Assembly (NCBI RefSeq): GCF_003258295.1
Contig: NZ_QKYN01000007.1
Span: 62,001-126,000, forward strand
Reading direction: 5' to 3'
DNA length: 64,000 nucleotides
DNA from: Streptacidiphilus pinicola
Lineage (GTDB): Bacteria > Actinomycetota > Actinomycetes > Streptomycetales > Streptomycetaceae
Shown here: in pieces, positions 45,446-47,564 of the stretch
How the letters are laid out: each line of letters starts with the position of its first letter
Position numbering within the stretch: position 1 is the first letter of the stretch
Notes under the pieces: model-generated
The model's input: only the letters and a program-made list of their open reading frames with translations
What the model was told of the DNA's origin: nothing
Databases searched by the model: none
Made by a program: the position numbers and the translations under genes

Positions 45446-46891
45446 GTGGCCCCCAAGTTCCGCGTTCTCGCCTGCTCGCTCGTGCTCACCGCCCTCGTGC
45501 TCGCGCTCGCGCGAAGCTTCACCGGGGGCGGGACGCTCGGGCGGCGCGGGCCGCTGCACGGGTGGTACCTCGCCGACGGGGTGCTGTTCGCGCTCGCGCT
45601 GCTGCTCGCCCTGCTCGGCCGGGGTCTGCCCGAACGCGCCGCGCGCCTGCTGGTGCTGGTCGGCGGCGCCGCCGTCGCCGGGACGGGGCTGCTCGCCCCG
45701 CCGCGCACCAGCGACGACGTCTACCGCTACGTGTGGGACGGCCAGGTGCAGGCGTCCGGGATCTCGCCGTACGCCTACACGCCCGTCGACCCGGCGCTGG
45801 CCGGCCTGCGGGCCCAGGCGCCCGCGCTCTTCCCGCCGCACGGCGGGACCGCCGCCTGCACGGGGTGGGACCTGCACCAGGCCGCGCAGATCTGCACCCA
45901 CATCAACCGCCCGACCGTGCACACCATCTACCCTCCCCTCGCCGAGGTCTGGTTCCTGCTGCTGCACGCGCTCGGCGGCACGGTCCGGGTCGCCCAACTG
46001 CTCGGCGCGCTGCTCGCGTGCGCCGTGACGGCCGTGCTGCTGCGCACGCTGCGGGTCCGGCGTGCGCCGCTCGCGTGGGCCGGGCTGTGGGCGTGGTGTC
46101 CGGGCGTGGCGATCTGGTCGGTCAACGACGCGCACATCGACACCCTCGGGGTGCTGCTCGCGCTGCTCGGTCTGACCGCGGCGGCCTCGGGGCGGCGGCC
46201 GGGGGTGGCCGGGGCGCTGCTCGGCGCCGCGACGGCGGTGAAGCTGATCCCGGCGGTGGTGATCCCGGGCGCGCTGGCCCGCCGCGGCGGGCGGCTGCGG
46301 CTCACGGCGGCCGCGCTCGCGACCTTCGCTGTCGCTTACCTGCCGTACGTGCTCGCCTCCGGCCTCGGTGTCATCGGCTTCCTGCCCGGCTACCTGCAGG
46401 AGGAGGGGTACGACCAGGGCCGCCGCTTCGGCCTGCTGGCGCTGTTGCCGCTGCCGCAGGCGCAACTCGGGCTGCTGGCGGCCGTCGTGCTGGCGGGCGT
46501 CGCCCTCGCGGTCACCCTGCGCGGCGATCCGGAGCGGCCCTGGCGCGGTGCGTTGACGGTGGTGGGAACGGCGCTGCTGCTCGCGACGCCCAGCTACCCC
46601 TGGTACAGCCTGCTGCTGCTCGCGCTCGCCGCCCTGGAGGGGCGCTGGGAGTGGCTCGGCGTCCCGGTGGCCGGCCTGCTCGACTACGTCTACGGCGGTG
46701 CCCTGCAGCAGCCGGCCTATCTGGCCGCGCTCGGGCTGGTCCTCGCTGTCTCCGCCGGGCGGCGGTTCGCGGAACCGGGCGACGGGTTCAGCCGAGCAGC
46801 GCGCCCCGTCCCTCGGTCGTCTCCTGTCGCAGCGGCTGCTTCGGGTACGGCGTCATCTGCGTCAGGCCCGGGAAGTACACGTGCAGGCTGA
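45446..46891 (+). CDS. Polytopic GT87-like glycosyltransferase (polyprenyl-phosphate-sugar dependent)
   Basis: A 481-residue membrane protein with about 10 to 12 helices of the GT-C type. The first loop carries RTSDDVYRYVWDGQVQASGISPYAY, with the double acid expected at a GT-C active site; NDAHIDTLGVLLALLGL and ATAVKLIPAVVIPGA are other family blocks. It should use a lipid-linked sugar, possibly supplied by the DPM-like domain upstream. The last 104 bp overlap the convergent cysteine dioxygenase gene and encode a low-complexity Ser/Ala tail. Confidence 0.87.
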   Translation: MAPKFRVLACSLVLTALVLALARSFTGGGTLGRRGPLHGWYLADGVLFALALLLALLGRGLPERAARLLVLVGGAAVAGTGLLAPPRTSDDVYRYVWDGQVQASGISPYAYTPVDPALAGLRAQAPALFPPHGGTAACTGWDLHQAAQICTHINRPTVHTIYPPLAEVWFLLLHALGGTVRVAQLLGALLACAVTAVLLRTLRVRRAPLAWAGLWAWCPGVAIWSVNDAHIDTLGVLLALLGLTAAASGRRPGVAGALLGAATAVKLIPAVVIPGALARRGGRLRLTAAALATFAVAYLPYVLASGLGVIGFLPGYLQEEGYDQGRRFGLLALLPLPQAQLGLLAAVVLAGVALAVTLRGDPERPWRGALTVVGTALLLATPSYPWYSLLLLALAALEGRWEWLGVPVAGLLDYVYGGALQQPAYLAALGLVLAVSAGRRFAEPGDGFSRAARPVPRSSPVAAAASGTASSASGPGSTRAG

Positions 46892-47363
46892 CGGCGGGTT
46901 CCAGGGTGTCGTTGACGACCTCGTGCACGTAGCCCGGCGCGATGACGCGCTGCGTGCCCGGCGTCAGCGCGCGCGGGTCGCGGCCCGCGCCGAGCTCGGT
47001 GAGCTCGCCGCTGAGCACGGTCATCACGGCGGAGGAGCGGCCGTGGTCGTGGGCGCCGCTGCCCTGGCCGGGCAGCCAGCTGAGCAGCCAGACCTCGTAG
47101 CCGGGGCCGGTCTCGAGCCGGGCGTACCAGCGCGTCAGCGCGTCGTAGCGGACCAGCGGCTCCCAGCGCTCGCGGTCGGCGGCGACGCGGCGGGCCAGCG
47201 CGGCGAAGTCGCCGACGGTGGTCGGGTGGGCGAGCGGCTGGGGCGCGAGGTGCGGCCAGGCGAGCGGGTCGCCGGCGATGCTGACGTCGCTGAGCCCGTC
47301 GGGGAACGCTGCGGGTGCGGTCGCGATGACGGGTGCGGTCGCGGAGAAGTGCGGGGCGGTCAC
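46788..47363 (-). CDS. Cysteine dioxygenase
   Basis: A 191-residue cupin enzyme that oxidises cysteine to cysteine sulfinate. Iron ligands: HDHG in SGAHDHGRSSAVMTVLSGELTE and the third His in APGYVHEVVN. The Cys of the mammalian Cys-Tyr cofactor is replaced in this region, as in many bacterial forms. GTG start. It is preceded by a 28-codon leader peptide ending in a Cys-rich run, 78 nt upstream. The 3' end overlaps the convergent glycosyltransferase gene by 104 bp. Confidence 0.92.
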   Translation of the reverse strand: MTAPHFSATAPVIATAPAAFPDGLSDVSIAGDPLAWPHLAPQPLAHPTTVGDFAALARRVAADRERWEPLVRYDALTRWYARLETGPGYEVWLLSWLPGQGSGAHDHGRSSAVMTVLSGELTELGAGRDPRALTPGTQRVIAPGYVHEVVNDTLEPAVSLHVYFPGLTQMTPYPKQPLRQETTEGRGALLG

Positions 47364-47441
47364 GGCTGTGTCGTCCTAGGAGGTGTCGCCCGCGGAGGCA
47401 TGCACGCGCTCGGGGCTGTCGGCTGGGGGAGGAATGAGGCC

Positions 47442-47528
47442 CTAGCGACAGCGACAACACAGCGCACTGGCGGCACGGCGAAGCGAGCCGTGGAGACGGC
47501 TGCTCGACGAGACGCGGTGCGTAGACAT
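47442..47528 (-). CDS. Cys-rich leader peptide upstream of cysteine dioxygenase
   Basis: A 28-codon frame starting at ATG 47528 and ending in AASALCCRCR. The layout (Ser/Arg-rich start, RLHGSLRRAASALC, then Cys codons next to the stop) resembles the short actinobacterial leader peptides that sit upstream of sulfur genes and respond to cysteine through translation. Three Cys codons occur in the last five. It lies 78 nt before the cysteine dioxygenase start on the same strand. The intervening RNA has CCTCC runs that could mask a ribosome-binding site. Function is inferred from known mycobacterial examples. Confidence 0.75.
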   Translation of the reverse strand: MSTHRVSSSSRLHGSLRRAASALCCRCR

Positions 47529-47543
47529 GCCGCAAGCAGACCT

Positions 47544-47564
47544 TGTCAAGACCACCTTTGTCAA
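47544..47564 (-). promoter_or_regulatory. Duplicated TTGACA boxes upstream of the leader peptide
   Basis: On the minus strand TTGACA occurs at 47559-47564 and 47544-47549, 15 bp apart. The upstream one has a weak -10 (GTCTGC) 17 bp away that would start transcription near the leader ATG. They are good -35 candidates for the cysteine dioxygenase transcript. Confidence 0.45.

Follow-up and report, generated by a model that had tools for sequence, protein, structure and literature searches.

Why is a gene for a cysteine-degrading enzyme preceded by a short open reading frame that ends in cysteine codons, and in which direction would such a leader switch the enzyme? The question is raised by a locus within the 64,000-nucleotide stretch of DNA analysed here (the window). 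The host genome is Streptacidiphilus-like, and its nearest named relatives by the cysteine dioxygenase (CDO) protein, among the best 80 of 572 matches kept, are S. anmyonensis, S. jiangxiensis, S. melanogenes and S. neutrinimicus. A reading made from the letters alone (the sequence-only reading) had placed a 28-codon leader ending in ASALCCRCR at 47442..47528, and translation of the minus strand (47528-47442) bears this out. The frame encodes MSTHRVSSSSRLHGSLRRAASALCCRCR, with ASALCCRCR as its C-terminal end and a TAG stop directly after; the plus strand of the same interval holds another frame. The cysteine codons TGT TGT (CGC) TGT are leader codons 24, 25 and 27 (47448..47459, minus strand), and one codon more follows before TAG. 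An inverted repeat, CACGGC-TCGCTTC-GCCGTG, was spotted by eye within the leader codons for LHGSLRR (47474..47492, minus strand); the LHGS codons, which form part of it, are absent in three other loci (L009, L011 and L012). A divergent WhiB-type gene is the neighbour on the upstream side of the leader. Downstream, a C-rich gap of 78 nt (47364..47441, minus strand), which might serve for Rho loading, separates the leader stop from the CDO start. No Rfam family matched anywhere in the window at gathering score.

The enzyme that the sequence-only reading had placed 78 nt downstream on the same strand is confirmed as a CDO. The gene (46788..47363, minus strand, GTG start at 47363) matches the Pfam profile CDO_I (PF05995) with an E-value of 1.8e-17. 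Residues H105, H107, H147, H161 and Y163, which we take to be the iron-binding histidines and the His/Tyr pair, align with the same residues in CDO1 chain 9t7v and are unchanged across 18 aligned CDO proteins. R78 is also invariant in these 18 proteins, and its alignment to the 9t7v chain is ambiguous; in CDO, an arginine that binds the substrate carboxylate goes with cysteine rather than another thiol. CDO is closely followed in some relatives (L018-L022, L024, L027-L031) by a gene that we presume to be CofD-like. Instead of such a neighbour, the window has a convergent GT87 gene (45446-46891, plus strand), the frame of which overlaps the end of CDO.

To see how widely the leader occurs, CDO loci were pooled from 61 genomes (30 loci; 55 of the genomes have a CDO match), from the best 80 of 572 matches of named genomes and from 20 more stretches. 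A locus was scored as having a leader when an ORF on the CDO strand, 10-60 residues long and with three or more cysteines among the last 12, lay between 450 nt upstream of CDO and 90 nt inside it. Such an ORF is present at 116 of 130 loci, 114/120 in the Streptomyces family and 2/10 outside it, and on the reverse strand at 1/130; about ten of the 130 loci duplicate another, and the loci are related rather than independent. With 116 matches on one strand and a single one on the other, a chance origin of the leader is ruled out. The 14 loci without a match are L103, L110, L143, L144, L145, L147-L151, L156, L158, L160 and L161. L110 was counted among them though no upstream DNA is present, and at L103 no such ORF was found. 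L156 has a two-Cys leader behind a perfect TTGACA, which the three-Cys threshold missed, and L144 and L145 have a different two-Cys frame (read by eye). Among the 116, the match at L146 runs into CDO and has no promoter. L142, from another family of the same order, has the Cys leader MYQRADRLHHVKLRRVASALCCCLCCRPSL.

A separate, even draw from the class (196 genomes, 104 with a CDO profile match, 30 loci examined) gave a plausible Cys leader at 18 of 19 family loci, the window included and a few of them also seen in the first set. The remaining family locus, L198, has only a doubtful 11-residue match, and by the same criterion no Cys leader is found at any of the ten readable loci outside the order. 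The sequence-only reading had called the frame a Cys-rich leader peptide, had set it beside the Cys-codon leaders of mycobacteria and had asked for conservation of the frame and its Cys codons in relatives; both withstand the comparison. The leader appears to be old in the Streptomyces family and tied to this CDO lineage, as judged by sequence comparison and a small sample outside the family, and the frame has the look of a genuine regulatory element retained throughout that family. A pattern for the Cys tail alone is uninformative, with 187 matches in the genome versus 165 for a reversed control.

Conservation is uneven along the locus. Across six loci of the window's genus, the mean pairwise identity is 95% for the leader, 56% for the gap and 53% for the opening 42 nt of CDO. 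The residues that lead up to the Cys codons vary little within the genus (mostly LRRAASALCC). Between clades the peptide shows wide differences apart from its Cys codons, as in MSEFASPRSGSTLRRAVNSCCRLCSCCI, MLANLALTSTRTAGFLGAARARCSCCCPGC and MSVTHAPLPTRDHGFRCAVRARCRCSSC. Further counts were made on 100 loci, which leave out identical copies, L146 and five loci lacking a clear Shine-Dalgarno motif or start. TGT accounts for 350 of their 456 leader Cys codons, compared with 12 of 112 Cys codons across 33 window ORFs that are long and high in GC3. Their gaps range from 49 to 275 nt in length.

The leader is also tied to a promoter-like element. TTGACA, the candidate -35 box, lies 36 nt before the leader ATG (47559..47564, minus strand), and a perfect TTGACA is found 35-37 nt before the leader start at 94/96 loci, a figure raised by our choice of start as the in-frame ATG or GTG with the best TTGACA 32-42 nt upstream; the 96-locus set leaves out ten loci without a placed CDO start and identical copies. 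The candidate -10 region, TCTGCT (47535..47540, minus strand), fits the usual TAnnnT box poorly, and it would make transcription begin on the leader ATG or right beside it. Because the spacing of the perfect TTGACA is so widely kept, the leader is probably translated leaderless. The window and its near relatives have another TTGACA, 21 nt ahead of the ATG, that most other loci lack. The arrangement TTGACA-N30/31-ATG is found at only 19 places in the genome, at least two of which are leader peptides, namely this leader and MRTRILVLGGRVG (L168, contig C57). The latter, with a perfect TTGACA at the same spacing, is this genome's counterpart of the S. lividans IlvL leader MRTRILVLGKRVG, which is reported to be leaderless (PMC8079986); none of the eight leader peptides in the portion of that paper available to us precedes CDO. 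Elsewhere in this genome, a short frame with two adjacent Cys codons, MQGLSRVGSCCLRVAQP (L178, contig C249), has the same spacing from a perfect TTGACA.

How the leader might act on CDO is suggested by RNA complementarity. In the window, the segment GCTGTGTTGTC over the first two Cys codons (47453..47463, minus strand) is complementary to GACGACACAGC (47375-47365, i.e. 47365..47375 on the minus strand) over 11 bp with one G-U pair. This partner shares bases with the Shine-Dalgarno-like motif AGGA, and a single base separates its end from the GTG of CDO. The minimum-energy fold of the window includes this pairing, and the stability of that fold is only modest (z = -1.72, with 12 of 200 shuffles scoring as well). 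In L015, from the same genus, the helix is made by a different pair of segments, GTCCTTGCTG and CAGCAAGGAC. For two Streptomyces types, the pairing is between GTCGCTGTTC in the tail and ATGAACAGCGAC, the first codons of CDO; it holds in 114/120 and 170/170 cells, compared with 22-71% in a slid control. All 13 positions of this helix are paired in 11/42 loci, and its covariation is thin, as most pairs never vary and one clear double change is seen (L106).

When contiguous helices were compared with those of random segments of each locus, p ≤ 0.05 was reached at 11/12 and 19/19 loci in these two Streptomyces types, 5/14 in the window's genus, 6/33 in others and 0/22 in the Kitasatospora types. 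By duplex energy, the same threshold against random local segments was reached at 1/14 loci in the window's genus and at 0/12, 0/19, 1/33 and 0/22 in the remaining groups, 2/100 in total. Duplex energy is a poor test because random GC-rich segments score well too, and the contiguous-helix and stall tests were used instead. For the tail against the Shine-Dalgarno region alone, the window's genus is the only group whose average pairing exceeds that of shuffles (4/14 at p ≤ 0.05), and RNAalifold found no common tail-to-start structure in that genus. Taken together, a Cys-codon segment complementary to the CDO ribosome-binding or start region recurs with sequences that differ by clade, and some of the tests are non-significant. 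This suggests that the sequestering contact was re-invented, since its partner is the Shine-Dalgarno region in one genus and the start of the CDO coding sequence in Streptomyces. Inverted repeats that begin at the leader stop were seen by eye in L010, L013, L015 and L159 and likewise in the Kitasatospora types (TAGGGCCTG..CAGGCCC; TAGGCGC..GCGCC).

The consequence of a stalled ribosome was simulated for 72 of the 100 loci (those of at most 300 nt). The measure was the energy required to open the CDO region that spans the Shine-Dalgarno motif to codon 4, and it was computed for four states: the free RNA, the RNA with a ribosome footprint placed over the middle Cys codon, the RNA with an early ribosome, and the RNA with a shuffled tail. 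Among the 50 loci that are not of the Kitasatospora types, a stall reduces this opening cost by more than 1 kcal/mol in 40 and raises it in 3; in the window's genus the figures are 10/14 and 2. Mean costs for the free, stalled and shuffled states are 13.0, 9.5 and 9.6 kcal/mol in the window's genus (n = 14), 16.2, 9.1 and 10.0 (n = 11) and 14.5, 9.2 and 10.3 (n = 11) in the Streptomyces types, and 13.8, 9.7 and 10.5 in the others (n = 14). The window itself gives 12.9 free, 8.2 stalled and 7.7-9.7 kcal/mol shuffled. When the tail is shuffled, most of this extra cost disappears outside the Kitasatospora types. With an early ribosome the mean cost stays about the same in two clades, and in another two it goes up. 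Opening of the Shine-Dalgarno motif alone shows a weaker effect, lowered by more than 0.5 in 37/82 loci (at most 330 nt) and raised in 9. The Kitasatospora types display no stall effect (11.55 vs 11.53 kcal/mol; lowered in 3/22, raised in 2). Where an effect is seen, the predicted sign mostly points one way, namely that a stall for lack of Cys-tRNA would free the CDO start.

We therefore favour, with a probability of roughly 0.6, a reading in which the leader is the sensor of a cysteine-responsive translational attenuator before CDO. In sequence it is supported by the TTGACA at leaderless spacing, the ORF end in mostly TGT cysteine codons, the C-rich gap and the complementarity to the CDO start. 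Transcription would begin at the leader ATG, so that ribosomes would load directly on it. With enough Cys-tRNA they would run through and leave at the leader stop; the Cys-codon segment, now vacated, would pair with the ribosome-binding and start region of CDO, which would be little translated, and termination by Rho in the C-rich gap may come on top. A shortage of Cys-tRNA would make a ribosome stall on the Cys codons and cover the sequestering segment, and CDO would be translated. CDO would thus be expected to rise in cysteine shortage.

The opposite switch, in which the leader turns CDO on at plentiful cysteine, had been proposed by the sequence-only reading as one way out of the conflict with a catabolic gene. 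It could operate by translational coupling or by arrest of the nascent peptide close to the stop codon, in the way TnaC responds to tryptophan. It would suit the catabolic role of CDO, the residues ahead of the Cys codons vary little within the genus, and stable-looking hairpins were seen by eye to start at the leader stop in some members of the genus as well as in the Kitasatospora types. A further point in its favour is the rise of cdo genes in one Streptomyces growing on Cys-rich feather (PMC7181669, as far as its accessible text goes). However, the divergence of the peptide beyond the Cys codons between clades speaks against an arrest peptide, gaps of such variable length are ill-suited to coupling, and in most loci other than the Kitasatospora types the effect of the simulated stall is to expose the start of CDO and not to hide it. 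The computed RNA logic has the same sign as reported for mycobacteria, in which a stall is described as freeing the downstream start, so the inverted mechanism is not supported and we consider it unlikely. Of the two options that the sequence-only reading had offered, the other, an enzyme that serves a different need, would then be the better.

Transcription attenuation by Rho would have the same sign by different means, since a stalled ribosome would shield the C-rich gap from the factor. C exceeds G in 100/100 gaps (on average 49% C and 26% G), and for this reason Rho may add to or replace the pairing, although such C-richness may be ordinary, the count covering gaps that follow a leader. 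A role of Rho at the Cys leaders of mycobacteria has been put forward as a weak prediction (PMC1262725, in the part accessible). As this mechanism leaves the results of the pairing and stall simulations unexplained, it appears improbable as the general explanation, if a little less so than the inverted switch, and in the Kitasatospora types it may be the main means. Finally, an ORF devoid of regulatory role, be it a chance frame or a small protein acting alone, is very hard to reconcile with the conservation, the placement of the Cys codons and a promoter spacing that is kept while the rest of the peptide varies between clades; we give it next to no weight.

A translational attenuator of the favoured kind leaves the puzzle of the sequence-only reading over the direction for a catabolic gene real, and it becomes one of physiology. 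The release of cysteine-degrading CDO when cysteine is short, as predicted by the models, seems the opposite of what a breakdown enzyme would be expected to need. One guess is that CDO supplies sulfite to break disulfides outside the cell, or that it acts on other thiols. In Streptomyces sp. SCUT-3 grown on feather, cdo1 rises 50.2-fold and cdo2 8.3-fold, and the sulfite released is read as a means to break keratin disulfides (PMC7181669, accessible portion). Feather is a Cys-rich food, and we do not equate the cdo1 of SCUT-3 with the window CDO. A tentative proposal, which we hold less likely than the attenuator itself, is that cysteine shortage switches CDO on across the Streptomyces family as a scavenging response and not as a simple overflow drain: some cysteine or another thiol would be spent on sulfite, which would open disulfides (keratin, cystine) and allow more cysteine to be regained. 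A Cys leader fixed before a cysteine-degrading enzyme across a family, together with a logic of release in starvation, makes a direct prediction on the role of bacterial CDO.

In the accessible parts of the reports, the Cys-codon leaders described so far precede cys operons, cbs, cysA2, nirA and one gene of unknown role (PMC1262725, PMC4633059, PMC13236596, PMC9031893, PMC9094748). A search that mostly excluded subscription papers found, among the matches listed (10 of 728 for uORF and attenuation), no report of a leader peptide, uORF or attenuation before cysteine dioxygenase, or of this Cys uORF in Streptomyces. The closest systems are the polycysteine leaderless short ORFs of Mycobacterium (Ms5788/cysA2 and others; Shell 2015, PMC4633059, seen in part), in which a stall at the Cys codons is predicted to unmask the downstream ribosome-binding site (PMC13236596, partial text; see also PMC4633059, PMC9031893, PMC9094748). 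The window leader resembles these attenuators in its short length, leaderless spacing, Cys-codon end and downstream sulfur gene, and in the predicted sign, as a stall at the Cys codons would free the downstream start; it differs in its peptide family, its cysteine-degrading target and a pairing partner that changes by clade. Like the Cys leaders described for the cys operons of Mycobacterium and P. acnes and for cbs of B. longum (Seliverstov 2005, PMC1262725, accessible part), it has a run of Cys codons near the stop. The targets named in that part of the paper are cys and cbs; it mentions neither CDO nor a Cys leader of Streptomyces, and reports no conserved terminator hairpin.

In kind and size the window leader is also like the members of NF042933 (leader_Ms5788A) and NF042934 (cis_reg_atten). 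It matches neither profile at E ≤ 1, for which reason membership was rejected, and seven related CDO leaders likewise give no NF042934 match. The two-Cys leader of L156 reaches only E = 0.02, below the cut-off, and the frame of L144, transcribed by eye, scores below the NF042934 cut-off. From sequence, the window leader is best described as a family of the known Cys-attenuator kind that lies outside the coverage of these two profiles. A tandem-rhodanese gene of the same genome (L217:1192-1270, contig C117) is preceded by the Cys leader MKRQADLTKRRAVDLCRVAACLCRMR, with a one-mismatch -35 box 36 nt upstream, which matches both NF042933 (Ms5788A family; 47.3 bits, cut-off 45) and NF042934 (35.8 bits, cut-off 27). 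By these profile scores, a leader of the mycobacterial cysA2 type appears to exist in Streptacidiphilus. Cys-containing frames such as VTDTELRLVRRVHLDLVRYAGCVCRPSR and MGITVLRPARSTRRPDAVRRPHLCCTSFCASFCTQG are found upstream of a second, distant CDO paralog in several relatives (L226-L245, L002), and 3/6 of those tested score above the NF042934 cut-off. The S. lividans ‘metL’ leader MSTTSDRTPATEATTTPGARCMCRRMCAF, which lies ahead of metNIQ and is described as a methionine leader (PMC8079986, available portion), has three cysteines in its last nine residues and could be a cysteine leader.
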